Part shown: one piece after another, positions 6,565 through 61,309 of the stretch | Numbering within the stretch: position 1 is the stretch's first letter | Layout of the letters: the number at the start of each line of letters is the position of its first letter | Assembly (NCBI RefSeq): GCF_947492535.1 | Contig: NZ_CANLNH010000001.1 | Coordinates: 62,001 to 126,000 of the forward strand | Reading direction: 5' to 3' | From: an uncultured Dokdonia sp. | Lineage (GTDB): Bacteria > Bacteroidota > Bacteroidia > Flavobacteriales > Flavobacteriaceae | DNA: 64,000 nt | The notes under the pieces: generated by a model | What the model saw: only the letters and a program-made list of their open reading frames with translations | The model's database searches: none | Told to the model about the DNA's origin: nothing | Translations under genes and position numbers: made by a program

Positions 6565-6584
6565 TACGCTTTCGCGAAAGCGTA
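6565..6584. repeat. TTTCGCGAAA palindrome copy 1 (intergenic)
   Basis: Perfect 20-bp palindrome TACGCTTTCGCGAAAGCGTA between coxA and ruvB. It ends 13 bases upstream of a TATATTTG element (6598-6605) that resembles the flavobacterial -7 box. It therefore occupies the place where a -33 TTG would be expected. Confidence 0.93.
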
Positions 6585-6597
6585 CTAAGACAATCCT

Positions 6598-6605
6598 TAT
6601 ATTTG
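6598..6605 (+). promoter_or_regulatory. candidate -7 promoter element for ruvB
   Basis: TATATTTG matches the Bacteroidota -7 consensus TAnnTTTG, 25 bases before the ruvB ATG. No TTG is seen at the expected upstream spacing; the palindrome copy 1 sits there instead. Confidence 0.45.
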
Positions 6606-6630
6606 TGTAACACGATTATTCAATCATACT

Positions 6631-7653
6631 ATGAATGAACATTTAGATCCGACAAGTAATCAATACTCTCATGAAGAGATGGATGTAGAACGCGCTTTGC
6701 GTCCACTGTCCTTTGAAGATTTTACAGGTCAAGATCAAGTGTTAGAGAATCTTAAGGTTTTTGTGCAAGCTGCAAATTTAAGAGGAGAAGCTTTAGATCA
6801 TACACTATTTCACGGACCTCCAGGGTTAGGAAAAACAACCTTAGCCAATATTCTTGCAAATGAACTAGATGTAAATATAAAAATCACATCAGGCCCTGTA
6901 TTAGATAAACCAGGAGACCTTGCAGGTTTATTGACAAACCTTGAAGAACGCGATGTGCTATTTATAGATGAGATTCATCGTTTAAGTCCTATAGTTGAAG
7001 AGTATTTATACTCAGCGATGGAAGACTATCGTATTGATATTATGATTGAGACAGGACCCAATGCACGCACAGTGCAGATTGATTTGAGTCCGTTTACGTT
7101 AGTAGGCGCAACGACACGATCAGGATTGCTTACAGCACCTATGAGAGCTCGTTTTGGAATCTCTTCTCGATTACAATATTATAGTACAGAGTTACTCACT
7201 TCTATCGTGCAACGTAGTTCCCATATTTTAGGAGTGCCTATTTCTATGGAAGCTGCTATAGAAATAGCAGGAAGGAGTAGAGGAACGCCTCGTATTGCAA
7301 ACTCATTACTGCGTCGTGTGCGTGATTTTGCACAAATAAAAGGTGATGGCACTATAGATATAGGAATTGCTAGGTTTAGTTTGAAGGCATTAAATGTAGA
7401 TGCACACGGATTAGATGAAATGGATAATAAGATACTGGCTACTATTATCGATAAGTTTAAAGGAGGGCCTGTAGGAATCACCACATTAGCAACGGCTGTT
7501 TCAGAAAGTGCAGAAACCATAGAAGAAGTATATGAGCCTTTCTTAATACAACAAGGTTTCATCATGCGTACTCCTAGGGGAAGAGAAGTGACAGAAGAAG
7601 CCTATCGCCATTTAGGCAGAACCAAAGGGCCTGTACAAGGAGGTTTATTTTAA
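6631..7653 (+). CDS. ruvB: Holliday junction branch migration helicase RuvB
   Basis: AAA+ ATPase motor that drives Holliday junction migration with RuvA in recombinational repair. Length is 340 residues, the usual family size. Seen: Walker A in [13 protein letters not shown], Walker [10 protein letters not shown], the arginine-containing segment [14 protein letters not shown], and the C-terminal winged helix ([16 protein letters not shown]). The ATG at 6631 gives the normal N-terminus ahead of [11 protein letters not shown]. It is monocistronic or cotranscribed with the P450 gene 70 bases downstream. Its partner ruvA is far away at 19415. Confidence 0.98.
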
Positions 7654-7723: not shown

Positions 7724-9073
7724 TTGAAAGAAAAAAAAATTCCCACAGTTTCTTTTTTTAGTTTTCTTAAAAATGCAAATAAGATTGTTAAGAACCCATT
7801 ACCTTTTCATCATAAGAACTTTGAAAAAAATGGAGATACATTTCGCTTAAAATTAGGAATGGGTAACTCGGTGATATTCTCCAGAAACCCCGAATTCGCA
7901 ATGTATACATTGCAGAAAAACCAACGTAACTATACAAAATCCAAAATTCAGACGAAAGACCTTTCTAAGTATGTGGGGAAAGGATTGCTTACTTCAGAAG
8001 GAGAACTTTGGAAAAAACAACGCCGACTCATACAACCGGCATTTCATAAAAAACAACTAGAACAGTTGCTGGATACTGTTTTGGAAGCTATCCAGATTGA
8101 AATGCGCCATATTCAGCCTAATACAGCTATAGATATCTTTCCGATATTAAATGATCTTGCGTTTCAAACCGTAGCAAAGGCTCTGTTTAGAACTCAGATA
8201 GACCCTATGATTATTAAAAGGCTACAGTACATTACAGAAGCTGCACAACAGATGCTTGTTAAGGAATTACGACAGCCTTTTAAAACATTGTATTTTAAAT
8301 ATGGTGGACCCATCAAAAAACACATAGACCTCACAATAGAAGCTCGGGAAATTCTACAGAAACTCGTGAGTGAACGTAGAGAAAGTGGAGAGCGACAAAA
8401 TGACCTTCTTGATATGCTGCTAGATGCTCGTTATGAAGATGGTACAGGTATGGACGAATCCCAATTAATAGATGAGATATTAATTCTATTTGTTGCAGGT
8501 CATGAGACGACATCAAATGCACTTACATTTACATTACAACTCCTTGCGCAGTATCCTGAAATTCAAGAAAAGGTATATGCTGAATGCAATGGGAGTGAGA
8601 AGGATTCCGCTTTCGCGAAAGCGGATACAACATCATTACTAGCATATATTAAACACTGTGAGTACACCAAACAAGTTATAGAAGAGTCTATGCGATTATA
8701 TCCGCCAGCATATTTTGTGGATCGTGTGAATTATGAAACAGATGAATTTGATGAGATTAGGATAGCAAAAGAATCTAGCTTGTTGTTTTCTATTAAGGAA
8801 ATCCACATGCATAAAGAGTATTGGGAAGACCCTGAATCTTTTAATCCTGATCGCTTTGCAGATAATGCAGGAATGAAACACAAAGCCTATTTTCCATTTG
8901 GAGCAGGTCCACGTATGTGTATAGGGAATAATTTTGCAATGTATGAGATGGTACTTGCGATTGCTGAAGTTGTAAAAAAGTATAAAATAAAGAAGAAAGA
9001 GACTCCGATAGAGATCAAACCTTTAATTACATTAAAACCGCAAAATGCGATTTTAGAGTTTATACCTCGTTGA
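7724..9073 (+). CDS. cytochrome P450
   Basis: Heme-thiolate monooxygenase, 449 residues, substrate unknown. Seen: I-helix oxygen-activation motif [10 protein letters not shown], ExxR motif in EESMRLYPP, and the heme-binding loop [10 protein letters not shown] with the proximal Cys at residue 399. There is no membrane anchor, so it is probably soluble. The start is a TTG at 7724, since no suitable ATG lies upstream and the next Met would remove conserved sequence. A copy of the genome palindrome lies inside the gene (8606-8625) and encodes DSAFAKAD in the variable region before the ExxR helix. A redox partner is not visible in the window. It overlaps nothing and is followed at once by queG. 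Confidence 0.93.
8606..8625. repeat. TTTCGCGAAA palindrome copy 2 (inside P450 gene)
   Basis: Perfect 20-bp palindrome TCCGCTTTCGCGAAAGCGGA, read in frame as SAFAKAD without disturbing the P450 frame. Confidence 0.93.
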
Positions 9074-9077
9074 TGAA

Positions 9078-10147: not shown

Positions 10148-10157
10148 TTTCTTAAAA

Positions 10158-11644: not shown

Positions 11645-12871
11645 ATGAAACATTTTGGCGTAAAACTGTCACTTTATCTTAATTACTTTGTGTTTGCTAT
11701 TCTTCTGAATAGTGTAGGGATTGTGATTTTAAAATCTCTTAATAATTATGGAGTAGCGGAAGATACAGCAAGTATTTTAGAAGCATTTAAAGATTTGCCT
11801 ATTGCGATTGTATCTTTTTTAGTAGCTTCCTTTTTACCGCGATTAGGATATAAGAAAGCAATGCTTATTGCTCTTGCATTGGTTACAATAGGTTGTATTG
11901 CTATGTATTTCGGAAATAGTTTTGATACAGCAAAACTTCTCTTTGCAACAGTAGGTGCTTCTTTTGCTTTGATTAAAGTATCTGTATATTCTGTCATAGG
12001 ATTAGTCACTTATAGTACAAAAGAACATAATTCTTTAATGAGTTCAATAGAGGGGGTCTTTATGTTTGGTATTGCTCTAGCGTACTATCTATTTCCTGCT
12101 TTTAATACAGAAGGGCAGCCAGATGCCTGGTTAAATGTATATTGGTTGTTAGCAGCTATGACTGTAATTTCTTTTGTAATACTGCTTTTTACAAAGTTTG
12201 AAAATCCACCACAACCAGAAGGAAGCAACGTTAAAGAAGATTTTGTCGAAATGTTTAAGTTATTAAGTAAGGTGCTGATTATTATTTTTGTTATTAGTGC
12301 TTTTCTGTTTGTAATGATTGAACAAGGGATCATGACTTGGTTGCCTACTTTTAATGAGAGAGTACTAGGACTTACAGAGAATACGGCAATAATGATGGCT
12401 AGCATTCTAGCTATATCCTTAGGTATAGGTAGGTTGTTAGCAGGAGCTCTTACTAGAAAAATAAGTTGGATATACGTATTGTCTGGATGTACTATTATTG
12501 CGATGGCATTAGTGCTCTTTGTGTTGCCTGAACTTTTAAACCTTGAAGTTAGTGGAGTAGAAAATATAAGTGATATTCCTCTTTTAGGGTTTGCATTTCC
12601 AATTATAGGGCTATTTATTGCTCCTATATATCCATTGTTAAATTCTGTAGTATTATCTGCACTACCTAAAACATTACATAGTCCTATGACAGGTTTGATT
12701 GTTATTTTTTCTGCATTAGGAGGAACAATAGGGAGTCGTATTATTGGGTATTTGTTTAAAGAAGTCGGTGCGCAAAAAGCATTTTATTTTACACTTATAC
12801 CAATGACTGTTTTATTAATATGTTATTTCATCTTAAAAAAATTAACAGAAAACAATGCAGTTCAAGGGTAA
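11645..12871 (+). CDS. MFS transporter, second of the sugar operon
   Basis: Polytopic major facilitator protein, 408 residues with about 12 hydrophobic segments. Seen: PRLGYKKAMLIALALVTIGC in the first half and the matching RLLAGALTRKISWIYVLSGC region in the second half. It resembles the FucP-type sugar porters in general shape, but I do not recognise a specific substrate. It starts 11 bases after the first transporter and its 3' end overlaps the trehalase start by 17 bases, so the three are translationally close. It may carry a monosaccharide or the same sugar as its neighbour. Confidence 0.8.
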   Translation: MKHFGVKLSLYLNYFVFAILLNSVGIVILKSLNNYGVAEDTASILEAFKDLPIAIVSFLVASFLPRLGYKKAMLIALALVTIGCIAMYFGNSFDTAKLLFATVGASFALIKVSVYSVIGLVTYSTKEHNSLMSSIEGVFMFGIALAYYLFPAFNTEGQPDAWLNVYWLLAAMTVISFVILLFTKFENPPQPEGSNVKEDFVEMFKLLSKVLIIIFVISAFLFVMIEQGIMTWLPTFNERVLGLTENTAIMMASILAISLGIGRLLAGALTRKISWIYVLSGCTIIAMALVLFVLPELLNLEVSGVENISDIPLLGFAFPIIGLFIAPIYPLLNSVVLSALPKTLHSPMTGLIVIFSALGGTIGSRIIGYLFKEVGAQKAFYFTLIPMTVLLICYFILKKLTENNAVQG

Positions 12872-14777
12872 CATAGAAGAAACACTTCAGCGGTTACTAT
12901 CTCAAGAAGATACCGATGGAGATAAAAAAATCACAATAGAAGATAAAGGGCCTAAGGCTTTTACAATAGACCTTCTTTCTGAGAATGGTTTCGCGAAAGC
13001 GTATGTCATAAAAGGCACTTATCACTTATCAAACTTTCTTCAAGAATTAGCTCTAGAAAAAACACTTGGGAAAACCGAAGCTACAATTCCATTATCTAAA
13101 ATAGAAGAAACACCTTCCGCTCGCGTATCAAGAATGATCAAAGATTACTTTTGGGATGATCTTACGCGTACATTAGATGCTGACGGCTTGCGTAAAAGTC
13201 TAGGAGATGATAAAGCTATAGATACGACACAGCGACTATATGTTCCCGTAACAGATACAGAAGGCGTTGCTTATTATCAAAATATACAACAACAATTTCC
13301 GAATCTAGAAGTTGTGATACTCCCTGAAGATATTACACCAACATATGTCAAATCAATTAATGACAAACCAGGTGTTTTAGCATTGGCATTGCAAGAGGGA
13401 AAAGGAGTGCCGTTTGTAGTACCCGGAGGTCGATTCAATGAAATGTACGGATGGGATAGTTATTTTGAGGGTGTTGGATTAATCATAGATGGCCGAATCG
13501 ATCTTGCTAAAGCGATGATAGATAACTTCTGCTATCAGATTACGCATTATGGGAAAATATTAAATGCAAATCGTTCCTATTATCTTACTAGAACGCAACC
13601 GCCTTTTTTGAGTTCGTTTATTTATAAAGTATATGAAGCAGATCCTTCTATTGGAAAAGAATGGTTAGCAAGTGTTTTAAAGGTGGCAATTCAAGAGTAT
13701 GAAACTGTTTGGATGCAAGCACCACGTCTTACAGAAAATGGATTGAATCGTTATTATGCACAAGGTATTGGGATTCCTCCAGAAACCGAAGAGGGACATT
13801 TTGATGATGTGTTATCCGCTTTCAAGGAGCAATGTGACGCAGAAGTTTATGCTGAGCAAAGTCGAAGTGCGAAAGGTGCGAGTCGCACTGACAAAGAGGG
13901 AAAACCGCTTTCCGTAAAAGAATTTGCAACGTTGTACCAATCAGGAGAATTGCAAGAACCTAAACTAGACACTTATTTTACGCATGACCGAAGCCTACGA
14001 GAAAGTGGACATGACACCTCTTGGCGATTGGACGATGTATGTGCCGACTTGAATACAGTAGATTTAAATAGTTTGTTATATAAATATGAATTGGACTTTG
14101 GTTATATAATCGACACCTATTTTGATGGAGAGTTTGAAGGATATAATGGTTCGCATTGGTTTATAGAAGCTGAAGAAAGAGCAGAGCGTATGAATACTTT
14201 GATGTGGAATGAAGAAGCAGGTCAGTATTTTGATTATAACTTTGAAACGGGAAAACAAACAAACTTTGAAAGTGCCTCAAATTATTTTCCATTTTGGGCA
14301 GGACTTGTAGATCAAGAAAGAGTGTCTAAAATGGTTAAAAGTTTGATGCGAGATCTCAAAGAAAAAGGAGGAATCGCTGGCACATCAAAAGCCATGCATG
14401 CACAAGTGCCAGAAGGAGCAGTGCAACGCCAATGGGATTATCCTAACGGATGGGCACCACATCAAATGATGATATGGGGAGGGCTCAAAATTCAAAAATT
14501 TGAAGACGAACTACAAGAGCTTATCTATAGATGGTTATGGATGATTACTCGAAATGCTGTCGATTATAACGGAACCATTCCTGAAAAATATGATGTAGTT
14601 GCTTGTACACATAAAGTATATGCAGAGTACGGTAATGTAGGAACTGAGTTTGATTATATTACTACCAGTGGTTTTGGGTGGATGAATGCCTCTTATCAAT
14701 ATGGACTATCACTATTAAATACTGATCTAAGAAATAAACTAGATCAATTAGTAGATCCAGATACCTTGTTTTCGTAG
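12855..14777 (+). CDS. trehalase family glycoside hydrolase (GH37)
   Basis: Alpha,alpha-trehalase family enzyme, 640 residues, predicted cytoplasmic because no signal peptide is seen. Seen: trehalase signature 1 PGGRFNEMYGWDSY from residue 190, QPPFLSSF, ESGHDTSWRLDD, and signature 2 QWDYPNGWAPHQ from residue 526. Near the N-terminus residues 19-30 (DTDGDKKITIED) look like an EF-hand calcium loop, with Asp at positions 1, 3, 5 and 12. The gene overlaps the upstream MFS gene by 17 bases. A degenerate copy of the genome palindrome (core 12989-12998) encodes GFAKAY. Trehalose is the likely substrate; a related disaccharide is possible. Confidence 0.9.
   Translation: MQFKGNIEETLQRLLSQEDTDGDKKITIEDKGPKAFTIDLLSENGFAKAYVIKGTYHLSNFLQELALEKTLGKTEATIPLSKIEETPSARVSRMIKDYFWDDLTRTLDADGLRKSLGDDKAIDTTQRLYVPVTDTEGVAYYQNIQQQFPNLEVVILPEDITPTYVKSINDKPGVLALALQEGKGVPFVVPGGRFNEMYGWDSYFEGVGLIIDGRIDLAKAMIDNFCYQITHYGKILNANRSYYLTRTQPPFLSSFIYKVYEADPSIGKEWLASVLKVAIQEYETVWMQAPRLTENGLNRYYAQGIGIPPETEEGHFDDVLSAFKEQCDAEVYAEQSRSAKGASRTDKEGKPLSVKEFATLYQSGELQEPKLDTYFTHDRSLRESGHDTSWRLDDVCADLNTVDLNSLLYKYELDFGYIIDTYFDGEFEGYNGSHWFIEAEERAERMNTLMWNEEAGQYFDYNFETGKQTNFESASNYFPFWAGLVDQERVSKMVKSLMRDLKEKGGIAGTSKAMHAQVPEGAVQRQWDYPNGWAPHQMMIWGGLKIQKFEDELQELIYRWLWMITRNAVDYNGTIPEKYDVVACTHKVYAEYGNVGTEFDYITTSGFGWMNASYQYGLSLLNTDLRNKLDQLVDPDTLFS
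12989..13003. repeat. TTTCGCGAAA palindrome copy 3 (inside trehalase gene)
   Basis: Core TTTCGCGAAA with only the right arm (GCGTA) kept; the left arm has been lost. It reads in frame as FAKAY near the N-terminus. Confidence 0.85.
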
Positions 14778-15995: not shown

Positions 15996-16943
15996 GTGAA
16001 TCATATAGATAACATAGATATTTTTTGTGTAGGAGAAACACTTATTGATTTTATAGGACATCAAGAAGAAGCTCGTATAGAAGAAACAAAAGATTATCAT
16101 CGGTATTTAGGAGGATCTCCTACAAACGTAGCGATGAATATGGCTCGATTGGGAGTGAATGTATGTCTGGCAAGTACCATAGGAGAAGATGGTTTTGGAA
16201 CCTATATTTTAGATAAGTTGAATGACAATAGAGTTCCTGTAACGTATGTACGTAAAGATGCCATACAGCCTACCTCTGTTATATTTGTTTCAAAAACAAC
16301 AGGTACTCCTGATTTTATCCCTTTTAGGAAGGCAGATGTCATGATTACCGAAAATCAGATTCCCACAGAGGCACTAGAGAAAACACGTATTTTTCATACG
16401 ACTGCTTTCGCCCTAAGTAAGAATCCGTCTCGTAATACCATTTTAGCAAAAGCAAAAGAAGCACATGACTTAGGCGTTACCTTAAGTATAGATATCAATT
16501 ATTCTCCCATTATATGGCCAGATCGATTAAAGGCCATGGAGACGCTAAAAACCTATTGTCAATATGATCCATTGGTGAAAATTAGTGAAGATGATATGGA
16601 ACGTCTTTTTGAAGAGCGCCTTTCACATGAAGAAATCTTTACATTCTTTCACGATCATCTTAATGTGAGTGTAGTATGTTTGACATTAGGGAGTCGTGGT
16701 GTTACGCTTTCGCGAAAGCATAATACGCCCATAACCCTTCCTGCCGAAAAAGTAGAAAACATCATGGATGCCACTGGAGCAGGAGATGCGTTTTGGAGTG
16801 GTTTCCTATTTGCTTATTTAAAAGAATTTCCTGTAGAGCGATGTTTAAAAATTGCCTTAGCATTAGCCGCTATTAAATTACAGAATGTAGGCAGATTACC
16901 ACAGAACATGGATGTCTTATCCGAATTATTGAGAATTACATAA
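15996..16943 (+). CDS. PfkB family sugar kinase, probable fructokinase
   Basis: Ribokinase-like (PfkB) carbohydrate kinase, 315 residues. It phosphorylates a sugar with ATP. Seen: the N-terminal IDIFCVGETLIDFIG, the sugar-binding YLGGSPTNVAMNMARLG, and the PfkB signature 2 DATGAGDAFWSGF with the catalytic Asp. The start is a GTG at 15996, three bases after the glycosidase stop. Last gene of the sugar operon. In this context it would feed released fructose into glycolysis; the exact sugar cannot be read from sequence. Palindrome copy 4 encodes LSRKH in a loop region just before the C-terminal part. Confidence 0.88.
   Translation: MNHIDNIDIFCVGETLIDFIGHQEEARIEETKDYHRYLGGSPTNVAMNMARLGVNVCLASTIGEDGFGTYILDKLNDNRVPVTYVRKDAIQPTSVIFVSKTTGTPDFIPFRKADVMITENQIPTEALEKTRIFHTTAFALSKNPSRNTILAKAKEAHDLGVTLSIDINYSPIIWPDRLKAMETLKTYCQYDPLVKISEDDMERLFEERLSHEEIFTFFHDHLNVSVVCLTLGSRGVTLSRKHNTPITLPAEKVENIMDATGAGDAFWSGFLFAYLKEFPVERCLKIALALAAIKLQNVGRLPQNMDVLSELLRIT
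16703..16722. repeat. TTTCGCGAAA palindrome copy 4 (inside kinase gene)
   Basis: TACGC-TTTCGCGAAA-GCATA, one mismatched pair in the arms. It is read as TLSRKH, a different reading frame of the palindrome from copies 2 and 3. Confidence 0.88.
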
Positions 16944-19310: not shown

Positions 19311-19338
19311 TAAGTACGCTTTCGCGAAAGCGTACTTA
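19311..19338. repeat. TTTCGCGAAA palindrome copy 5 (intergenic, longest)
   Basis: Perfect 28-bp palindrome between maeB and ruvA, extending the 20-bp unit by TAAG/CTTA on each side. It lies 12 bases after the maeB stop. There is no T tract after it, so it is not a typical terminator. Confidence 0.94.
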
Positions 19339-19414
19339 TTAAGAATCTATCCGTAATGATGACTCTTGGTAAAGATATTTTCTTACATTTACGGGCTTAA
19401 CACTAGAAATAAAG

Positions 19415-19996
19415 ATGATTACTCATTTAAGGGGTAGGCTTATCGAAAAAAATCCAACCTATGTGGTCGTAGACTGCAATGGGGTTGGTTATTTTGTTAA
19501 TATATCGCTGCATACCTTTTCTGCTTTGCCACAAACAGAGGCAATATCTATTTATACACACCTTCAGGTAAAAGAAGATAGCCATACCCTATATGGGTTT
19601 ATGGATGTGATGGAACGTGAGATATTTAGATTATTAATTTCTGTTTCCGGAATAGGAACGAGTACAGCTAGAACAATGTTGTCTTCTTTACATCCTGATC
19701 AAATAAAACAAGCAATAGCATCTAATGATGTAGCTACAATTCAAGGAATCAAAGGGATAGGTGCAAAAACGGCTCAACGTGTCATTTTAGATTTAAAAGA
19801 TAAAATCTTAAAAGTGTTTGATTTAGATGTCAATTCTGCCTTACAGAGCAATACACACAAAGAAGAAGCGTTATCAGCATTAGAAACATTAGGTTTTGCA
19901 AGAAAACAATCTGAAAAAGTTTGTATGCAAATTCTTAAAGAAAAGCCAGAGGCTAGTGTAGAGATCATTATAAAAGAAGCATTAAAAAAATTATAA
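19415..19996 (+). CDS. ruvA: Holliday junction DNA-binding protein RuvA
   Basis: Tetrameric Holliday junction binder that loads RuvB. Length is 193 residues. Seen: N-terminal OB-fold (MITHLRGRLIEKNPTYVVVDC), two HhH motifs (LISVSGIGTSTARTML and IQGIKGIGAKTAQRVILDLKDK), and the C-terminal RuvB-binding three-helix domain (EEALSALETLGFARKQSEKV). A TACATTTA element at 19384-19391 could be part of its promoter, but the upstream TTG spacing (15 bases) is short. sprA begins 8 bases after its stop. Confidence 0.98.
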   Translation: MITHLRGRLIEKNPTYVVVDCNGVGYFVNISLHTFSALPQTEAISIYTHLQVKEDSHTLYGFMDVMEREIFRLLISVSGIGTSTARTMLSSLHPDQIKQAIASNDVATIQGIKGIGAKTAQRVILDLKDKILKVFDLDVNSALQSNTHKEEALSALETLGFARKQSEKVCMQILKEKPEASVEIIIKEALKKL

Positions 19997-20003
19997 AGCC
20001 ATT

Positions 20004-27572: not shown

Positions 27573-27595
27573 TATAGATGATAAGCGTGTTATAA

Positions 27596-27613
27596 ACGCT
27601 TTCGCGAAAGCAT
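27596..27613. repeat. TTTCGCGAAA palindrome copy 6 (intergenic)
   Basis: ACGC-TTTCGCGAAA-GCAT with one mismatched arm pair, between sprA and gcvH, 28 bases before the gcvH start. Confidence 0.88.
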
Positions 27614-27641
27614 AAACAAACCACATAATAATAAACTAATA

Positions 27642-29313: not shown

Positions 29314-30111
29314 ATGAGAAATTCACAAGAAAGTAAGGATGTTCGCCAAAACATTCCTTATGCAAAATCACGCAAGCATGAAGCAAATTTACGAAGAAAT
29401 CCCACACTCCATTTTCAGATTGGATTAATCCTATCATTATTTGTTGCAATTCTATTTATAGAAATGCGAATGCCTACCAAAGCAGAAAGAGGTCCCTCTG
29501 AAGGTATAGGGGAAGAAGACCTTCTTTGGTCAGAAGTTATTGATATCGAACCAATACAGGTGGATAAAATTACTCAAAAAGAACCGCCGCCACCTCAGCA
29601 ACAGCAACCGGAAGATTTCACCATCATAGATGATGAAGACGATTTGCTTGAAGAGTTTGTAGATGATACGGAAACAAATCAAGATGATATTATATCTGAT
29701 AATGAGCTTCAAACCCTTGAAGATCCAGATGTTGATGTAGAAGATATCGCTCCTATTCCTGTAAACTTTGTGCAAAAAGTGCCTATTTTTCCTGGTTGTG
29801 AAGGGTTGAATACTAATCAAGAACGCAAAGATTGTATGAGTAGTAAAATTTCTAAAATCATTAATAGAAAGTTTGATACTGAATTAGGAGAAAAATTAGG
29901 ACTTACAGGTGTAAATAAGATTTTTGTTCAGTTTACAATTAATAAAGAAGGTGTTGTAACAGATATGAAGGCAAGAGGGCCTCATGAAGCTTTAGAAAAA
30001 GAAGCAAAGCGAGTTATTGGTTACCTTCCTAAGATGACACCAGGAAAGCAAGGAGATAAGTCTGTAGGGGTGATCTATTCACAACCTATTACTTTTCAAA
30101 TACAAGATTAA
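29314..30111 (+). CDS. energy transducer TonB, second of a tandem pair
   Basis: TonB-like protein, 265 residues from the ATG at 29314; an upstream TTG at 29287 is possible but less likely. Seen: a longer basic cytoplasmic N-terminus, one membrane helix (FQIGLILSLFVAILFI), a short PPPPQQQQ stretch, a long acidic linker (TIIDDEDDLLEEFVDDTE), and a C-terminal domain with PIFPGCEGLNTNQERKDCM and MTPGKQGDKSVGVIYSQP. It is clearly a duplicate of the preceding gene in the C-terminal domain, while the linker has diverged. It lies between two terminators and so is its own transcription unit. Confidence 0.92.
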   Translation: MRNSQESKDVRQNIPYAKSRKHEANLRRNPTLHFQIGLILSLFVAILFIEMRMPTKAERGPSEGIGEEDLLWSEVIDIEPIQVDKITQKEPPPPQQQQPEDFTIIDDEDDLLEEFVDDTETNQDDIISDNELQTLEDPDVDVEDIAPIPVNFVQKVPIFPGCEGLNTNQERKDCMSSKISKIINRKFDTELGEKLGLTGVNKIFVQFTINKEGVVTDMKARGPHEALEKEAKRVIGYLPKMTPGKQGDKSVGVIYSQPITFQIQD

Positions 30112-30164: not shown

Positions 30165-30211
30165 TATTTAAAATTCCTATCTTTCGCTCATTAATGCATA
30201 ACACCTACCAT

Positions 30212-32341
30212 ATGCACAAATATGTTGCCCTTCTTATAAGTATACTAGTGATAACGTCTGTACAGGCGCAGATCAATCCTGATCCAAGTGATTTTGAAAA
30301 ATACCCTATGTTTCCTGATTGTGAAACGCTTGCAGTAGCAGATATTCCCAATTGTTTTAATGCAAAGATGATCCAGTTCTTTGTTGAAAAATTTGAAATG
30401 CCTTCACGAGTTACTGAAGAGCAGTATGAGGGACAAATGGTGATGCTTTTTGAAGTAACAACAAAAGGAGAATTCAAACTTTTGAATACAGATGCAATAT
30501 ATGTAGAGCTTAAAGAGGAAGCGCAGAAAGTATTTGATCAACTTCCTAAAATACAACCAGCAACCTATAATGGAGAACCTGCATATATTCAATTTTCTAT
30601 GCCTGTTAAGATTCCGCTTTCGCGAAATAAAATAGGTGAGTATACATCTCCAGAAATAACAACTACTGAAAAGACTGAAACAAATGCACTTGAAGCTCAG
30701 GCAGCCTCAAAGGAATTAGAGAATATAAAAAGTAAAGACTTTGATAGAAAAGTACAGTATAAAAGCCAACTTAACATTCCTTTTTCTCATGAAGTATATT
30801 CCAGATTTGATAAGGCATTAAATCAAATAGGGGTAAATACACATACAGCGAGTCGTCCTTTTTTATATGATGTCGTCAATAACTACCATAATTTTGACTC
30901 TATAGTCAATACGCTACAGCTAGATAAGAAAAGTTGGTTTGGACGAAAGTTCTTTAATGAACATATGATTCGTTTTCAGGGAGATAATTATTGGTTTACA
31001 ATAAACCCTGGGGCAGACCTTGCATTAGGAACTGAAACAGATGATCGTAAAGTTGAAAATCTAACCTATAATAATACAAGAACTGTTTTTATTCAAGGAG
31101 GTATCGGTACTAAGTTTAGTTTTTATACGGCATTATTTGAAAGCCAAGGACGCTTTGCACAATACTATAATGATTATGCAAGATCGCTTCGTCCAGATGG
31201 AGGAAATCCAGCTGTAATACCCGGAAGAGGTATTGCTTCCGAAGGAAGAGGAGGTGATTTTGATTACCCTGTAGCTGAAGGATATGTATCGTATACCCCA
31301 AATAAGTTTTTTAATTTTCAAGCGGGAACTGGTCAGCAATTTATTGGAGATGGATATCGCTCATTACTCTTAAGTGATGTATCTGCAAACTATCCATTCT
31401 TTAAAATAAATACAACCATCTGGAGGCTTAAGTATACAAATACATGGTCGTCAATAAAAGATGTACGACCAGGAGTCACTGCCGATGGTGCATTCATTAA
31501 TAAATTTGCTGTAAATCATTACTTAAGTTACAATGTAAATAACAAGCTTAATTTAGGATTTTTTGAATCTGTGATCTCTGCAAGTGAAGATAATGGAGGA
31601 TTTGATGCGAGTTTATTAAATCCTATTATTTTTCTTAGGAATGTAGAATTTCAAAGAGGTTCTCGAGGCGGAAATGCATTAATTGGTTTAACGGGAAAAT
31701 ATAAGCTTTCAAATAATATCAATATATATGGACAGCTTGTTATAGATGAGTTACGCCTTTCGGAGCTTACAAGCGGAAATCAGAACTTTAGAAATAAACA
31801 TGGTGTCCAGTTAGGGGTAAAATATTACGACGCTTTTAAAGTGCCTAATCTCTTGTTACAAGCTGAGTTTAATCAGGTACGACCGTATACGTTTTCTAAT
31901 AACGATCCATTGCTTAGTTACACCAATACCAATCAGCCGTTGGCACATCCTTATGGAGCTAACTTCAGAGAGTTTATAGCAATAGCTAGATATCGAACAG
32001 ATAGATGGTATGGAAATGCACGTATTATCTATGGGCAACGTGGTTTTGAAGGAGATATAAATGATGTGTTCTTTGGAGGAAATAACTTATTTGGAAGTGA
32101 AGATAATAGACCAAGTGATAATGGAATAGCATTATTGCAAGGGAATAGAGTAAACTCTTTATATGCAGATTTGGAAGTAGGCTATCTTATTAATCCTGTA
32201 ACAAATCTTAAAGCATTTATAAATCCAATATTCAGAGATTTTAGTGCAGAGATGCAAACAGATGCTGTTTTTGATACGAGTACACTTTGGTTTAATATAG
32301 GTTTTAGAACAGACTTGTTCAATTGGTACTTTGATAACTAA
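30212..32341 (+). CDS. remB: gliding motility protein RemB-like outer-membrane protein with N-terminal TonB-type domain
   Basis: Outer-membrane protein, 709 residues from the ATG at 30212; an ATG at 30194 would add six residues. Seen: signal peptide (HKYVALLISILVITSVQAQ); a first domain at about residues 25-135 with YPMFPDCET...NCF and LPKIQPATYNGEPAYIQFSM, which parallels the Cys-containing TonB domains of the two genes upstream; then a Wzi/RemB-type beta-barrel (WFTINPGADLALG, FNFQAGTGQQFIGDGYRSLL, ending FNIGFRTDLFNWYFDN). RemB is a cell-surface gliding protein in Flavobacterium johnsoniae, encoded near sprA there as here. The palindrome copy 7 encodes PLSRNK at the junction between the two domains. 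Confidence 0.85.
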   Translation: MHKYVALLISILVITSVQAQINPDPSDFEKYPMFPDCETLAVADIPNCFNAKMIQFFVEKFEMPSRVTEEQYEGQMVMLFEVTTKGEFKLLNTDAIYVELKEEAQKVFDQLPKIQPATYNGEPAYIQFSMPVKIPLSRNKIGEYTSPEITTTEKTETNALEAQAASKELENIKSKDFDRKVQYKSQLNIPFSHEVYSRFDKALNQIGVNTHTASRPFLYDVVNNYHNFDSIVNTLQLDKKSWFGRKFFNEHMIRFQGDNYWFTINPGADLALGTETDDRKVENLTYNNTRTVFIQGGIGTKFSFYTALFESQGRFAQYYNDYARSLRPDGGNPAVIPGRGIASEGRGGDFDYPVAEGYVSYTPNKFFNFQAGTGQQFIGDGYRSLLLSDVSANYPFFKINTTIWRLKYTNTWSSIKDVRPGVTADGAFINKFAVNHYLSYNVNNKLNLGFFESVISASEDNGGFDASLLNPIIFLRNVEFQRGSRGGNALIGLTGKYKLSNNINIYGQLVIDELRLSELTSGNQNFRNKHGVQLGVKYYDAFKVPNLLLQAEFNQVRPYTFSNNDPLLSYTNTNQPLAHPYGANFREFIAIARYRTDRWYGNARIIYGQRGFEGDINDVFFGGNNLFGSEDNRPSDNGIALLQGNRVNSLYADLEVGYLINPVTNLKAFINPIFRDFSAEMQTDAVFDTSTLWFNIGFRTDLFNWYFDN
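30614..30627. repeat. TTTCGCGAAA palindrome copy 7 (inside remB)
   Basis: Left arm CCGC plus core TTTCGCGAAA; the right arm is lost. It is read as PLSRN right after the N-terminal TonB-type domain. Confidence 0.8.
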
Positions 32342-32370: not shown

Positions 32371-32394
32371 TATACGCTTTCGCGAAAGCGTATA
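32371..32394. repeat. TTTCGCGAAA palindrome copy 8 (intergenic, convergent genes)
   Basis: Perfect 24-bp palindrome, the 20-bp unit plus TA on each side, between the convergent ends of remB and the SRPBCC gene. Confidence 0.94.
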
Positions 32395-35184: not shown

Positions 35185-35230
35185 AATAATGGTTTGTGTT
35201 AAAGGCTTCCAGTCGTAAATTGCAGAGAAA

Positions 35231-35247
35231 GCTTTCGCGAAAGCGTA
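35231..35247. repeat. TTTCGCGAAA palindrome copy 9 (intergenic, divergent genes)
   Basis: 14-bp perfect inner palindrome GCTTTCGCGAAAGC with only the right arm extended (GCGTAA). It lies between the divergent MBL gene and the ctaB promoter. Confidence 0.9.
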
Positions 35248-40740: not shown

Positions 40741-40746
40741 AATGGT

Positions 40747-41031
40747 ATGAGAATTAAAAAAAATATCATTATTGTTTTTATGATTTTTGTTTCCGCTTTC
40801 GCGAAAGCAGAGACAGTAGCACCCACTACATTATTGAATCCTCAATGTGCTATGTGTCGAGCTGTTCTAGAATCTGAAGAAGATAATAGCACAGCTAAAG
40901 GAATAAATAATGGGATTAAATACCTTATGATTATTCCGTATATATTAGTAGGTGGTGTTTTTTACTTTATCTATAAATCCAGAAAAAAAGATAAAGAAAT
41001 GGGTTCTGAAGATTCTTTTTCAGAAAACTAA
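40747..41031 (+). CDS. small CxxC membrane protein of the oxidase assembly locus
   Basis: 94-residue protein without a function I can name. Seen: a signal peptide (KKNIIIVFMIFVSAFAKA) with a good signal peptidase I site after AKA at residue 21, a C34-AM-C37 pair in NPQCAMCRAVLESEE, one membrane helix (IKYLMIIPYILVGGVFYFIY) and a charged C-terminus. The position after SCO and DUF420 suggests a role in copper handling or oxidase assembly. The genome palindrome (copy 10) lies inside the gene and encodes exactly the SAFAKA cleavage region. Confidence 0.8.
   Translation: MRIKKNIIIVFMIFVSAFAKAETVAPTTLLNPQCAMCRAVLESEEDNSTAKGINNGIKYLMIIPYILVGGVFYFIYKSRKKDKEMGSEDSFSEN
40793..40810. repeat. TTTCGCGAAA palindrome copy 10 (inside signal peptide coding region)
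   Basis: CCGC-TTTCGCGAAA-GCAG, read as SAFAKAE. The Ala-Lys-Ala is the predicted signal peptidase site. Confidence 0.88.
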
Positions 41032-41220
41032 TAAAGAAGTATTGTAACACAATTCTAAAAGGATAGTCTATACTCCCGAGAGGTATTTATAATCAATTGT
41101 TATTTATATCGTTTTTGTCAAACTGTTTGTAAGGAGAATCCTTTTAAATAGTGGTATTAACACCAATTTCACACAATTTTAGCTTTTCATTACTAATATT
41201 GTGCAATCAAAGTGTAGACT

Positions 41221-43159: not shown

Positions 43160-43175
43160 TAGTAAATGTTATGTA

Positions 43176-43195
43176 TACGCTTTCGCGAAAGCGTA
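43176..43195. repeat. TTTCGCGAAA palindrome copy 11 (intergenic, within operon)
   Basis: Perfect 20-bp TACGCTTTCGCGAAAGCGTA between the two permease genes, 16 bases from the upstream stop and 16 from the downstream start. It lies inside an apparent operon. Confidence 0.94.
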
Positions 43196-43211
43196 CTAAA
43201 AAATATAAAAG

Positions 43212-45674: not shown

Positions 45675-45696
45675 GTTACTATAAATCCAGTCTGAG

Positions 45697-45716
45697 TACG
45701 CTTTCGCGAAAGCGTA
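45697..45716. repeat. TTTCGCGAAA palindrome copy 12 (intergenic)
   Basis: Perfect 20-bp palindrome between adaptor 1 and the TolC gene, 22 bases after the adaptor stop. Confidence 0.94.
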
Positions 45717-45785
45717 TAAAAATTAATTAACATTTTTTGTAACATAAACACGTTTCAATAGTCATATTGGACATCAATCGATATT

Positions 45786-50149: not shown

Positions 50150-52267
50150 TTATGATTTAATAAGCGCTAATGCCTCTGTGATACTTCTCACTGGAAGCTT
50201 GCATGCATTATTAACACAAACATAAATGAGTGTTTCATTTTTGAGATAACGTCCTTCAAAAATCTCCTGTGTGCTTTCTGAAGTGCTAGCCGCTATTAAC
50301 TTATTCGGAATGTAATGAGTGTTTAACTCCGTAAGAACTTCTTTAGCATTAGGTCCTACTATCACAATCTCATAATAAGGATTCGTATAATTAAGATATA
50401 AATCTAACCAGTTACTAAAAGCCGTTGGAGATTGATCTATTTCTGGTTGCATATTATTGAGCATTGCTGCTGCCGTTTGCGTATATGATTTATCTAGATA
50501 ATAGTGAGAGAGTGTGAAAATATTTTTTGCCATCATAGAGTTGGATGCAGGGATCACTTTATCTATATACGCTATATTCCGGCTTATTAAATCGGTGTCT
50601 TCATCAGATGTAAAAAAGAACATGCTATTTTCTTTATTCTGAAAATGCACAAATGCATAATCTGTAAGTTGTTTTGCTTTTTCTAACCAGAAAGTATCTG
50701 TAGTTACTTCAAATAAAGCGATAAAAGCATCTATAGTACTGGCATAATCTTCAAGATACCCATTGATGGTACTCTTCCCGTTCTTGTAGTTTCGATTTAG
50801 GCCACCATCTTTGCGTATCATGTTGTCAACAATAAACGAGGCATTTTTAAGTGCGATCTCTAAGAATTTCTGATCGTTAAAAACCCGATAGGCATCAACG
50901 TATCCTTTGGTCATGAGGCTATTCCAACCGGTTAGAATTTTATCATCTAGGCGAGGTCTTTCTTTATTGCTTTCGCGAAAGCGTACTAAGACCTCTTTCC
51001 ATTGATTTCTTTTTTCTTTAAGATCAGCAATTGAAATCCCATGTTCTTTTACAAAATTTACATCTGAATCTTTACGAATTAAAACATAATGGTCTTTTTC
51101 CCATATTCCAAAGTCATTGATGTTGTAATAGGAAGCAAAAAGATCATACTCTTCTTTTAAGAGTGTTTTTAAGGTTGCTTCTGTCCAAACATAATAAGCA
51201 CCTTCTTCAAGTTCGCCTTCTGGGGTGAGGCTATCAGCATCTAGAGCGCTGTAAAACCCTCCTTCTTCGGTAGTCATTTCACGAGCGATATAGGCTAATG
51301 TTTGGTAGACAGTTTCTTTATAAAGTTCTTTTTGAGTACGTAAGTATGCATCACTATAGAGGCTTACAAGTTGTGCATTGTCATAGAGCATTTTTTCAAA
51401 ATGTGGAATATGCCATTTTTTGTCTGTACTATACCTTGCAAATCCTCCGCCTATTTGATCTTGGATGCCTCCATATGCAATTTTCTCTAGTGTGGTATTT
51501 ACGTAGTTAAGGATCGTGCTATCTTGGGTTTGATGGCCATAACGTAATAAGAATTGATAGTTATTAGGCATCATGAATTTAGGAGCTCTATCAATGCCGC
51601 CTTCTTGGGTATCCCAATATTTTGACCATGTGCTAAGGGATGCTATAATAAGTTCCTCTTCAAATATTGGTTTGTTAGGATTTGGAGTTACAATATCTCT
51701 CGTTTTGATGCCAGATGCAAGTTTATCTGCAAATTCTACTAATGCATTAGGACTTTCTTTAAATGCAGTTGCTACCTGTTCTAGAGAATTCATCCAGTCT
51801 TCTTTTGGGAAATATGTACCTCCCCATACAGGTCTTCCATCTGGTAAAGCAATAGCATTAAGAGGCCACCCACCAGCTCTACCTGTCATGAGTTCAACGG
51901 CACTCATATATACATTATCTACATCTGGACGTTCTTCACGATCTACTTTTATATTAATAAAATGATCATTCATAAAATTGGCAACCAGTGTGTCTTCAAA
52001 ACTTTCATGTTCCATGACATGGCACCAGTGACAAGATGAATAGCCAATACTTACTAAAATGAGCTTGTTTTCTTTTTTAGCAAGTGCTAATGTCTCTTCA
52101 TTCCATGGTTTCCAATTTACAGGATTATGTGCATGTTGAAGTAAATATGGGCTAGTTTCCTGTATGAGGTCATTGGTATATGTATGCATATCAGATTCAT
52201 TCTGGTTTTTGCAACTCCAGAATAGTATTAGTGTGAGTAACAATAAAAATTGTCTGTATATATTCAT
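50150..52267 (-). CDS. DUF255 thioredoxin-domain lipoprotein (YyaL/SPATA20-like)
   Basis: 705-residue exported lipoprotein (lipobox LFWSC, Cys19). Seen: the N-terminal DUF255 domain, [21 protein letters not shown] and the thioredoxin-like [16 protein letters not shown]; then a long alpha-toroid part ([58 protein letters not shown]) like the N-acyl-glucosamine epimerase fold. The family's function is not established. Palindrome copy 13 lies inside and encodes VRFRESN. It shares no evident operon with its neighbours; the next gene is dodecin 70 bases upstream. Confidence 0.92.
50969..50985. repeat. TTTCGCGAAA palindrome copy 13 (inside DUF255 gene)
   Basis: GC-TTTCGCGAAA-GC with the right arm extended (GCGTA). 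On the minus strand it is read as VRFRES, the third reading frame of the palindrome. Confidence 0.9.
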
Positions 52268-54046: not shown

Positions 54047-55048
54047 ATGAATCTAAAAAAATACTATATCATACTGGCATTGTTTTGCTCGCAATTTGTT
54101 GTTGCTCAGGAAGGTTTGCCGGTATTCTTAGATTATCTTCAAGATAACCTTTATCTGCTTCACCCTTCTATGGCTGGTGCTTCAAAAACAGCAAAGCTTA
54201 GAGGTACGGCACGTGGTCAATGGGCTGGTGTTGAAGATTCGCCTGCATTACAAACCATAAGTTTAAATGGTAGGATAGGAGAAAAAGTGGGTGTCGGAGG
54301 GATACTATTTAATGATAGGAATGGTTTTTTCTCTCAACAAGGAGTATATGCAACGTTTTCATATCATTTATTGCTTTCGCGAAATTATGTAGACCTTAAT
54401 CAACTTTCATTTGGATTAAGTTTGGGAGTCTTACAAGGTAAACTAGATGAAACTAATTTTGATCTTACTGATTTTGACCCTGTGATTGCTGGTATTGAAC
54501 AATCTGATTCGTATATAAATGTTGATTTCGGGATGTCTTATAATTTCTTAGATTTCTTTGCACACTTTACGGTGAAGAATGTACTTCCTGCAAACAGAGA
54601 TATCTTTACAGAAGCATTTGAACCAAATAATCAACGTAGATATATTGTGTCTATGGGATATGTAATTTCTCCTAATTTTTCTGACTGGAGTTTTGAGCCT
54701 TCAGCCTTGTTCCAAGCGACAGAACGTACAGGAGAAGCAAATATTGATTTAAACGCAAAAGCATATTATAAATTAGATTGGGGTAGATTATGGGGAGGAC
54801 TTTCGTATAGAAGAAGTCTTGATGGTGCAGAATTCACTCCAAACGGAGAAACTGTAGATATACAAAAAACACAATTTATTAGCCCATTTGTTGGGGGATC
54901 TTATGATAGATTCTTATTTGGATATACATATTCAAATCAAACAAACTCAGTAGTTTTAACAAACGGAGGATTTCACCAAGTAACATTAGGATATAACCTT
55001 GGAGAAAATAAAGATCCATATGATTGTAACTGTCCAGCTGTGAACTAA
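54047..55048 (+). CDS. PorP/SprF family type IX secretion membrane protein
   Basis: Outer-membrane protein of the PorP/SprF family, 333 residues. Seen: signal peptide (YYIILALFCSQFVVAQ), then PVFLDYLQDNLYLLHPSMAGA, the family N-terminus, followed by KLRGTARGQWAGVEDSP and repeated beta strands to HQVTLGYNLGENKDPYDCNC. Members work with the type IX system and surface adhesins in flavobacteria; here no large adhesin gene is adjacent. Palindrome copy 14 encodes LLSRNY in a loop. A strong bidirectional terminator follows. Confidence 0.92.
   Translation: MNLKKYYIILALFCSQFVVAQEGLPVFLDYLQDNLYLLHPSMAGASKTAKLRGTARGQWAGVEDSPALQTISLNGRIGEKVGVGGILFNDRNGFFSQQGVYATFSYHLLLSRNYVDLNQLSFGLSLGVLQGKLDETNFDLTDFDPVIAGIEQSDSYINVDFGMSYNFLDFFAHFTVKNVLPANRDIFTEAFEPNNQRRYIVSMGYVISPNFSDWSFEPSALFQATERTGEANIDLNAKAYYKLDWGRLWGGLSYRRSLDGAEFTPNGETVDIQKTQFISPFVGGSYDRFLFGYTYSNQTNSVVLTNGGFHQVTLGYNLGENKDPYDCNCPAVN
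54373..54384. repeat. TTTCGCGAAA palindrome copy 14 (inside PorP gene)
   Basis: Left arm GC plus core TTTCGCGAAA, right arm lost; read as LSRNY. Confidence 0.8.
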
Positions 55049-59747: not shown

Positions 59748-59749
59748 TC

Positions 59750-60487
59750 ATGCTAAAGCTTAAAACCATCATAGTAGAAGATGAAGAAATGAGTAGAGAA
59801 ATTCTGCGTAATTATCTTCAAAAATATTGTCCAAAGATTGAGCTTGTAGGGGAGGCATCAAATATAGAAGAAGGACTTGCTTTGATACGTAATCATACAT
59901 TAGATCTCGTTTTTTTAGACGTGGAAATGCCACATGGAAATGCTTTTGACCTATTAGAACAAGTGGGAGATCGTAGTTTTGAAACAGTCTTTGTAACTGC
60001 CTATAATCAATATGCTATTGAAGCACTTAATACACATGCCTCTTATTATTTGTTAAAACCAGTGTCTATTGATGAGCTTATTAAAGCGGTAGATTATGTG
60101 ATTCAAATTAAAGAAAAAGAAAATGATTTAGAAGATAAAGTACTCACGGCTTTTAATGCAGATAAGCAAGGGAAGATTACAATTCCTGTTCAAGATGGAT
60201 TTGAGGTTCTAGAAGCATCATCTATTTTATATTGCCAAGCAGACGATAATTATACCCAAATATTCTTAACCAGTGGCGGTAAAAAACTAGTAAGTAAAAC
60301 ACTTAAATATTTTCAAGATGCCTTGGTAGATTTCGGCTTTGTACGAGTACATAAATCGTATTTGATTAATATCAATGAAGTAACTGGGTATAGAAAAGGA
60401 AAAGGCGGTACTGTTGTTTTGAGTACAGGCAAAGAAGTGATGGTTTCCGCTTCTCAAAAAGCCAATTTACTGGCGTATTTTAAGTAA
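59750..60487 (+). CDS. LytTR family response regulator
   Basis: 245-residue response regulator. Seen: receiver domain with the phosphoacceptor Asp57 (LDLVFLDVEMPHGN), the acidic pair in VEDEE, the Lys in YYLLKPVSI, and a C-terminal LytTR DNA-binding domain (SSILYCQADDNYTQIF, FVRVHKSYLININEV). It is encoded 2 bases after its kinase. The 21-base-spaced direct repeat upstream of the kinase is a fitting target, suggesting control of the VWA gene and of the system itself. Confidence 0.95.
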   Translation: MLKLKTIIVEDEEMSREILRNYLQKYCPKIELVGEASNIEEGLALIRNHTLDLVFLDVEMPHGNAFDLLEQVGDRSFETVFVTAYNQYAIEALNTHASYYLLKPVSIDELIKAVDYVIQIKEKENDLEDKVLTAFNADKQGKITIPVQDGFEVLEASSILYCQADDNYTQIFLTSGGKKLVSKTLKYFQDALVDFGFVRVHKSYLININEVTGYRKGKGGTVVLSTGKEVMVSASQKANLLAYFK

Positions 60488-60490
60488 AAG

Positions 60491-61309
60491 TTAAAAGTCT
60501 TTATAAGAAACCTCAATGGCTATTTTTTCAGGGATTAGTCCGCTTTCGCGAAAGCGTATAATACAATCTTCAAGTACGTCAATAGTTTTATTAGAGTAGA
60601 TATGATGCTTTATAGATTGAACAATCTCTGTGCGTATCATTTGCTTTTGCTCTAATATGGTTTTAGTCTGTTTTGCGACCGCTTCTCCTGAATCAATGAT
60701 AGTAACTTGACTTGGTAGTAGTTCTTTTAAAATAGGTAGTAAAAATGGGTAATGACTGCAACCCAAAACTAAATAGTCAATATTTGCTTCTATCATAGGC
60801 GCTAAATAGGTAGCAAGTAACGCTCTTGTTTGTGTACTATCTATTTTTCCTTGTTCAATTAAAGGAACGAGGCCCGTGCCTATCACTTCTATGGTATTAA
60901 TTTCTTGTGCGTAGCGTTTTGAAGTGGTAGAAAATAAACGACTGTTTAAGGTTCCTTTAGTCGCTAGAATAGCAATACTCTTATTTTTAGATTGTAATGC
61001 AGCAGGTTTAATCGCTGGTTCTATTCCAATAAAAGGAACATCGTAATTTGCTCTTAAATAGTCGATAGCATTTGTAGTAGCTGTATTACAAGCAACAACA
61101 ATGATCTTAGCGCCTAGTTTGAGGAGTGTTTCTGTGTTTTTAATGCATAGATGTGTGATCTCTTCTTGAGATTTTCCTCCATAAGGGGCATATTTGCTAT
61201 CGGCTAAATAAACGGTTGACTCTAAAGGGAGTAATTGAACAATTTCTTTCCAGATAGAAATGCCTCCTATTCCACTATCAAACACACCGATGTATTGCTT
61301 TTTTTGCAT
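60491..61309 (-). CDS. murI: glutamate racemase
   Basis: Makes D-glutamate for peptidoglycan. 272 residues from the ATG at 61309; a longer frame to 61336 would run into the upstream terminator hairpin. Seen: the N-terminal GVFDSGIGGISIW with the first catalytic region, IIVVACNTATTNAIDYLR with the first Cys, and YLVLGCSHYPFLLP with the second Cys. Palindrome copy 15 lies inside and encodes IRFRESG near the C-terminus. Downstream (minus strand) of the OmpH genes. Confidence 0.96.
   Translation of the reverse strand: MQKKQYIGVFDSGIGGISIWKEIVQLLPLESTVYLADSKYAPYGGKSQEEITHLCIKNTETLLKLGAKIIVVACNTATTNAIDYLRANYDVPFIGIEPAIKPAALQSKNKSIAILATKGTLNSRLFSTTSKRYAQEINTIEVIGTGLVPLIEQGKIDSTQTRALLATYLAPMIEANIDYLVLGCSHYPFLLPILKELLPSQVTIIDSGEAVAKQTKTILEQKQMIRTEIVQSIKHHIYSNKTIDVLEDCIIRFRESGLIPEKIAIEVSYKDF
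60539..60558. repeat. TTTCGCGAAA palindrome copy 15 (inside murI)
   Basis: CCGC-TTTCGCGAAA-GCGTA, one mismatched arm pair. On the minus strand it reads IRFRESG, the same frame as copy 13. Confidence 0.9.

Follow-up and report, generated by a model that had tools for sequence, protein, structure and literature searches.

We analysed a short palindrome, TTTCGCGAAA, that recurs along a 64,000-nucleotide stretch of DNA (hereafter the window) from an uncultured Dokdonia sp. (assembly GCF_947492535.1, contig NZ_CANLNH010000001.1, positions 62,001 to 126,000). The window holds 15 exact copies of this 10-bp core, against 0.06 expected from dinucleotide shuffles (sd 0.28; largest count 2 in 100 shuffles), and no one-mismatch copy, against 1.81 matches expected at up to one mismatch. 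A preliminary description, made by a model from the sequence alone, had placed 15 cores and estimated about 0.07 random copies; all of its core positions proved exact. Its statement that the arms mostly complete a 20-mer, TACGCTTTCGCGAAAGCGTA, was too generous, as the 20-mer is exact at 5 of the 15 sites, within one mismatch at 7 and within two at 10. Eight cores (6570, 19320, 27600, 32378, 35233, 40797, 43181 and 45702) are intergenic, lying between open reading frames (ORFs) of at least 100 amino acids. The sites, to which no strand is assigned, are listed here as 20-bp intervals; the predicted footprint of each extends 20 bp beyond the core on either side.

Site 1, 6565..6584: TACGC-TTTCGCGAAA-GCGTA; intergenic, with a cytochrome oxidase subunit I-like gene on one side and ruvB on the other
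Site 2, 8606..8625: TCCGC-core-GCGGA; within ORF 7724-9073
Site 3, 12984..13003: within ORF 12855-14777; degenerate left arm
Site 4, 16703..16722: within ORF 15996-16943
Site 5, 19315..19334: exact 20-mer; intergenic, directly past a malic enzyme-like gene
Site 6, 27595..27614: intergenic (27573-27641)
Site 7, 30613..30632: within ORF 30194-32341; degenerate right arm
Site 8, 32373..32392: exact 20-mer; intergenic, between convergent ORFs
Site 9, 35228..35247: intergenic, between divergent ORFs
Site 10, 40792..40811: intergenic (40741-41220)
Site 11, 43176..43195: exact 20-mer; intergenic (43160-43211)
Site 12, 45697..45716: exact 20-mer; intergenic (45675-45785)
Site 13, 50966..50985: within ORF 50150-52267 (minus strand)
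Site 14, 54370..54389: within ORF 54047-55048; degenerate right arm
Site 15, 60539..60558: within ORF 60491-61336 (minus strand)

The longest gap between neighbouring sites (19320 to 27600) is mostly filled by a 2522-amino-acid ORF (20004-27572). At site 5, genomes G014 and G015 have a core at a near-equal distance past the malic enzyme-like orthologue.

The palindrome is a genome-wide motif, as the preliminary description had proposed, and its count is neither near random nor confined to the window. The window's genome (4,863,283 bases in 73 contigs) carries 1094 copies of TTTCGCGAAA and 21 of the reversed word, and all 17 other genomes of the genus that we counted carry 481 to 1195. A sample of 1.004 Mb held 282 copies, compared with at most 7 for each of 19 other palindromes of the same composition. 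Such an excess over the expected genome-wide frequency is a mark of a highly iterated palindrome (HIP). Outside the genus the motif is rare: among 41 genomes of other genera, G027 has 595 copies and the remaining 40 have 0 to 12. A longer form, the 14-mer GCTTTCGCGAAAGC, occurs 408 to 857 times in 6 of 397 sampled genomes of the family (G000, G012, G027, G281, G433 and G230) and 0 to 19 times in the other 391. In 396 genomes drawn from the class, only the window's own exceeds 4 copies. The six rich family genomes belong to three genera, Dokdonia (g1) and two others, which we label g210 and g11 (g11 is, at a guess, Nonlabens); g164, g96 and g71 denote motif-poor genera.

In a tree of one protein, malic enzyme, g210 adjoins g1, the motif-poor g164 comes next and g11 stands apart. 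The motif is therefore patchy, either retained in some lineages and lost from others or acquired repeatedly. In 100 kb of G281 (g11) there are 24 sites, 13 of them in long ORFs, of which 8 could be aligned to the Dokdonia genome G016. The core lies at the same codon in two of the eight (alignments 54 and 74% identical) and not in the other six; against the window's genome the figure is one of six. These small numbers appear to favour an old common origin of the motif. Of 585 RuvB loci in named genomes, 80 were inspected, and 77 of these lack the core. At locus L191, from Flavobacteria bacterium BBFL7, the sequence CGCTTTCGCTAAAGCG, a site with one core change, lies shortly upstream of ruvB, at about the position of the window's site 6570 relative to that gene.

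Comparison of related genomes revealed that the cores are conserved far beyond their surroundings. Between G003 and G016 (94% identity), 66 of 66 aligned cores are identical, whereas 65% of random 10-mers and 113 of 189 other CGCG-centred 10-mers are. G006 and G008 (90%) keep 62 of 63 and 63 of 66 cores in the two directions, against 44 and 45% of random 10-mers and 55 of 149 and 55 of 156 CGCG-centred ones. For G006 and G016 (77%) the values are 34 of 37, 12% and 6 of 98. Unaligned sites were left out of these counts: 1 for G003/G016, 5 and 6 for the two directions of G006/G008, and 31 for G006/G016. The window's genome keeps 15 of 20 cores relative to G016 (73%; 60 unaligned), 16 of 21 in reverse (47 unaligned), and 11 of 14 relative to G006 (72%; 66 unaligned), against 6.5-6.6% of random 10-mers; these deeper comparisons give upper values, as alignment favours kept sites. 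Within coding copies, synonymous third positions changed in 0 of 126, 0 of 81 and 2 of 64 cases, compared with 12.8, 22.9 and 45.8% across all genes and 8.4, 19.5 and 46.8% at 40 and 60 bp from the copies. The near absence of synonymous change places the constraint on the DNA, and the sites are maintained by DNA-level selection.

The specificity of this constraint is steep. In the 1.004 Mb sample, perfect cores number 282. One-mismatch cores number 57, where three first-order Markov simulations predict 38, and two-mismatch cores 378, where they predict 459; the one-mismatch excess is small but real. The 14-mer occurs 238 times without a mismatch and 24 times with a single one, against 0.33 expected for the latter, and of these 24, 15 deviate at the two outer pairs and 9 at the five core pairs, so that deviations are concentrated at outer positions, as in HIPs. 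Outside the core, change is tolerated stepwise, the consensus frequencies in g1 being 0.94 for C at -1, 0.94 for G at -2, 0.82 for C at -3, 0.59 for A at -4 and 0.77 for T at -5. Position -4, mostly A in g1, is T or C in g11.

These counts bear on the idea that the motif is a dyad-symmetric DNA uptake sequence, in which a surface receptor would prefer site-bearing DNA and transformation would spread and maintain the site. The copy number, the arm variants between genera and the permissive intergenic places fit the uptake sequences treated in passages of PMC3630211. These include 1294 uptake sequences arranged as overlapping dyad pairs in Simonsiella muelleri, with possible dimer-based recognition. 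Riemerella columbina, of the same family as Dokdonia, is competent and prefers its own DNA, according to part of PMC7965970. The large one-mismatch pool expected of uptake sequences, however, is missing here (57 versus 282 perfect copies, with 38 expected), whereas one-mismatch forms outnumber perfect ones in all Neisseriaceae species covered in those passages of PMC3630211 (for example, 4914 versus 4265). Measured as (observed - expected)/expected, the drop from zero to one mismatch is several hundred-fold here, and in the portion of PMC1939737 consulted, which uses a different null, it is 92-fold for H. influenzae and 82-fold for N. gonorrhoeae. The Riemerella k-mer table in the section of PMC7965970 that we saw holds only A- or T-rich words. 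We consider an uptake sequence somewhat unlikely.

The preliminary description was wrong in finding no link to position relative to genes. Beyond the eight intergenic sites of the window, 200 of 383 sites in seven stretches from five genomes of the genus are intergenic, although only 11.7% of that DNA is non-coding. These stretches include two pairs of close relatives, so that sites are partly double-counted and the numbers are not independent; genes came from a simple custom caller, whose coding call in G006 was only 80.7%. Among gaps of at least 30 bp in the same stretches, a site was found in 44 of the 157 between divergent genes, 45 of the 102 between convergent genes and 99 of the 441 between genes in tandem. 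Within tandem gaps, sites tend to lie nearer the stop of the upstream gene, on average 0.31 of the way into the gap (80 sites), as promoter avoidance would produce. Among coding copies, 72 of 134 share a preferred frame, in which the site with its usual arms encodes AFAKA. Some copies within genes lie in apparent signal peptides, a tolerant place, as FAFAKISFAQ or SAFAKAQ (loci L355 in G016 and L376 in the G116 island described below).

The sites are also spaced far more evenly than chance would predict. The coefficient of variation (CV) of the spacing is 0.68 in the window's own genome, 0.49 in G003, 0.49 in G016, 0.57 in G006 and 0.56 in G008, compared with 1.03-1.13 in gene-aware shuffles, in which intergenic and coding sites were redistributed randomly on their own kind of DNA. 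In each of these five stretches, which again include two pairs of close relatives, none of 2000 shuffles was as even as the observed spacing. In g11 the CV is 0.45 (23 intervals). On the complete chromosome of G016, 27 samples of 20 kb (ten of them adjoining) held 3 to 10 sites each, with a variance-to-mean ratio of 0.35. No sample was depleted, although the intervals between samples reach 180 kb and the terminus was not located.

A palindrome of this kind might fold, and the core with its arms could form a structural RNA or DNA hairpin, either a two-way terminator or a mobile repeat of the repetitive extragenic palindromic (REP) kind. The preference for the 3' side of genes fits such a reading, and some gapped differences between species are compatible with insertion or deletion. 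The arms, however, do not covary: pairing at 30 offsets matches the product of the single-arm frequencies (276 sites, z -1.5 to 2.1). This argues against a hairpin, because a hairpin needs arm covariation and two half-sites under a dimer do not. The covarying stem arms of REPs or miniature inverted-repeat transposable elements are likewise missing, and the would-be loop is the least variable part. As for mobility, several between-species differences are single substitutions in the core, and others are gapped or diverged. Between window positions 30000 and 49999 we found 16 terminator-like matches, none over the six sites there, where an intrinsic terminator would show a stem-loop and a T run. 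The palindrome has T on its 5' side and A on its 3' side, the reverse of a two-way terminator, and Rfam at gathering scores gave no match in the window. Taken together, a hairpin is highly improbable.

The symmetry extends beyond the arms. Across 280 sites in g1, the 15 bp 5' of the palindrome on each strand are poor in C (C 0.075, G 0.262) relative to DNA further out (C 0.168, G 0.181), except at position -10 (C 0.18), and the signal has its edge about 20 bp from the core. The C-poor flanks are present both in 96 sites with 50 bp clear of called genes and in 134 sites within genes, where C is 0.067 on one side and 0.106 on the other versus 0.170 and 0.199 further out; 50 sites overlapping gene edges were left out of this division. 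The flank C is 0.058 versus 0.163 beyond in g11, and on the mobile island described below it is 0.089 versus 0.171 in G116 and 0.082 versus 0.171 in G091. From these symmetric flanks, a dyad-symmetric footprint of about 50 bp is predicted.

The flanks also invite a reading as a two-way Chi site, a palindrome read by AddAB from either direction, whose C-poor 5' flanks would favour RecA loading. The strand that becomes the RecA-coated 3' tail would be C-poor and G/T-rich beside the site whichever side the enzyme entered from, and RecA prefers G/T. A signal required at intervals of a few kilobases would fit the even spacing. A PDDEXK_1 (PF12705) nuclease domain of the AddB/RecB kind is present in 16 of 16 genomes, in proteins that are presumably AddB/RecB enzymes; these genomes comprise 10 motif-bearing and 6 motif-poor ones, so that the domain is equally present where the motif is not. 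A tree was built from 15 proteins that were named AddB-like from their size and position; in it, the motif-bearing g210 joins the motif-poor g164 (support 0.995), although g11 joins g1 (0.85). Because the motif-bearing genera do not group apart in this tree, AddB was set aside as a reader. The flank signal stops about 20 bp from the core, and the Chi sites known to us so far are asymmetric and read as single strands. A two-way Chi site is thus quite unlikely.

We next consider which protein might read the site. The perfect palindrome with its CGCG centre would suit a HIP1-type motif that arises and persists through a methyltransferase and biased repair, and cyanobacterial HIPs are linked to orphan methyltransferases in the passages of PMC4390886 examined. 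The C5, N6/N4 and D12 families are patchy, however, and do not track the motif. Among 36 genomes searched, PF00145 (C5) has no match in 10 of 18 genomes of the genus, and PF01555 (N6/N4) has none above the cut-off in 17 of 18, the window's own genome lacking both. Among 26 genomes searched, PF02086 (D12) has no match in G006, G008, G009, G027, G281 and G230. G009, a single contig with 1074 sites, matches none of the three, so that abundance of the motif is not accompanied everywhere by a cognate methyltransferase of these families. They were rejected as the cause; type I subunits and other classes were not searched. A 10-bp invariant core also exceeds usual methyltransferase sites, which are shorter. 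A methylation-linked origin is very unlikely, and that part of the preliminary description is unsupported for these three classes. A Noc-like ParB paralogue was rejected as well: across 26 genomes, 14 of 15 motif-bearing ones have one ParB match and G011 has two, and two are also found in the motif-poor G184, G034 and G035.

In the motif-poor genera g96 and g71, the few copies are clustered at a density like that of motif-bearing hosts, and they expose a mobile element:

Mobile island, about 80 kb: G116:C3:32331-110029 (L375-L379); G326:C5 and C4 (L380-L386); G091:C6 (L387-L388)

All 16 copies in G116 lie within 78 kb of one contig; 18 of 19 in G326 and 16 of 17 in G091 lie on two contigs each, which share the island with G116. 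In the motif-poor g164, by comparison, two genomes have 9 and 6 copies spread over several contigs, which may be relics or transferred DNA. The island carries a serine recombinase, an MksE-like gene, a type IIG restriction enzyme, genes that on inspection resemble metal-efflux genes and many small unidentified genes; a 1056-amino-acid protein beside the MksE-like gene had no Pfam model above the cut-off. Between G116 and G326 C5 (96% identical), 10 of 12 cores are kept, against 86% of random 10-mers, with no sign of constraint. Core retention is above random between G116 and G326 C4 (92%; 5 of 6 versus 50%) and between G116 and G091 (87%; 9 of 11 in one direction and 9 of 13 in the other versus 32-33%; 3 of 3 versus 30% on another contig). 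It may be that the island lineages split inside motif-bearing hosts and that decay has begun since, the small numbers leaving room for other readings; on the same small numbers, a loss of constraint outside motif-bearing hosts is suggested. Relatives of this element are suggested by several other genomes, in which motif spacings of 933 and 2446 bp appear again.

Phages and plasmids yielded little. Two whole phages recorded as Nonlabens phages have no core in 35.7 kb each, which is weak evidence, as the motif status of their hosts was not tested. When a 36-base consensus was searched against collections of phages and of plasmids, each gave two records, with matches of 17-18 bases that we take as chance. 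Among the matches listed for viral contigs, 74 of 80 loci have a single core. Seven viral contigs (L198, L205, L210, L224, L229, L254 and L265) have the 14-mer in one near-identical context, in either orientation; the likely source is a single conserved phage gene with no relation to the bacterial motif. One viral contig stretch (L248, IMGVR_UViG_2617271332; 35.8% GC) has the 14-mer three times in 11.3 kb, about the density of motif-bearing hosts.

With count, range, DNA-level conservation, even spacing, independent arms and flank composition all observed, we tentatively favour, at somewhat less than even confidence, a chromosome-organising or self-marking site. Each copy would be a candidate binding site on double-stranded DNA, dyad-symmetric and about 50 bp long, laid out as the invariant core TTTCGCGAAA, T(A/C)CGC arms on both sides and then 15 bp depleted in C 5' of each strand. 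Because of the symmetry, the independent arms, the footprint and the even spacing, we infer that the reader would be a dimeric protein that binds duplex DNA and acts over kilobases. Such a dimer of a host-encoded protein would be a sequence-specific nucleoid protein, placed every 3-5 kb or so along the host's own chromosome, and its sites would be tolerated best past gene ends. A bolder form of this proposal is slightly more doubtful. In it, roughly 1000 even 50-bp sites and one dedicated dimer would constitute a genome-wide insulator or self-identity code, setting chromosome domains or telling own from incoming DNA. This would be an old code, carried by mobile elements resident in the hosts, that may decay after they leave.

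Several observations weigh against a chromosome-organising or self-marking site. In g210 the spacing is looser (CV 0.80, 10 intervals) and the flank signal weak (C 0.170 versus 0.258, 22 half-sites). There is no increase in copy number with genome size, contrary to what a fixed loop size would predict: among 12 genomes of the genus at least 99% complete, four of 4.3-5.5 Mb have 663-1195 copies and eight of 2.9-3.6 Mb have 821-1107. No protein reading the site was found among the families searched, so that architecture or self-marking is our guess as to its role; a site maintained for the uptake of DNA or for recombination would also fit the evidence. In a related count, 9 of 10 genomes of the genus (completeness at least 99%, 3.3-5.5 Mb) have 1012-1195 copies and G014 has 663; larger genomes are therefore less dense.

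The motif offers a tractable case. To our knowledge, the reason for very many copies of one palindrome is open even for HIP1, where the link to a methyltransferase complicates arguments about selection. In Dokdonia that link is missing in the tested families, synonymous positions allow the DNA-level constraint to be measured, and published genomes exist for isolates of the genus. One strain, Dokd-P16, was sequenced on a PacBio RSII (PMC13151707). DNA once resident in motif-bearing hosts may also be marked by the site, which in two motif-poor genera betrayed the island of some 80 kb. A literature search that included the exact core TTTCGCGAAA and TTCGCGAA found no description of the motif, preprints and most subscription papers lying outside its scope, and the motif is not described in the passages seen of PMC5217627, PMC1939737, PMC4390886, PMC3630211, PMC7965970, PMC3587595 and PMC13151707. 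A passage of PMC8034619 gives the exact core within a 12-mer absent from the human genome.

Of the known systems, the cyanobacterial HIP1 (GCGATCGC), to which the preliminary description had likened the motif, supports comparison: both are short perfect palindromes of very high copy number, lineage-limited and more variable at their outer positions. Unlike HIP1, the Dokdonia motif has no matching methyltransferase among the three families, is about half intergenic, has a 50-bp dyad with C-poor flanks and has few one-mismatch forms. A nucleoid or segregation protein, also proposed in the preliminary description, remains our first choice. The binding sites of Noc (NBS), parS and the sites of SlmA and MatP are chromosome-marking palindromes read by a dimer, and the TTTC..GAAA half-sites of the Dokdonia motif recall parS and NBS. 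The Dokdonia motif has well over ten times more copies than these, and the 27 samples of G016, at intervals of up to 180 kb, reveal no depleted sector; no ParB paralogue follows it, and its half-sites are set at a spacing that differs by 2 bp. Like the motif, Chi sites occur about once per few kilobases, with a lineage-specific sequence in a G/T-rich context; the Dokdonia motif differs in being palindromic, enriched between genes and strongly conserved in position. With DNA uptake sequences (DUS) and uptake signal sequences (USS), above all the overlapping dyad DUS of Simonsiella muelleri, it shares about 1000 copies, a core with degenerate flanks, arm variants between genera and permissive positions. 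It departs from them in the rarity of one-mismatch copies, which exceed perfect ones in Neisseriaceae, and in its strong intergenic enrichment, no such preference being obvious for Simonsiella in the passages of PMC3630211. The kind of element, a genome-wide iterated palindrome or uptake-like motif, is thus already known; this member differs in that no tested methyltransferase accompanies it and that it combines steep specificity, a predicted 50-bp footprint and enrichment between genes.

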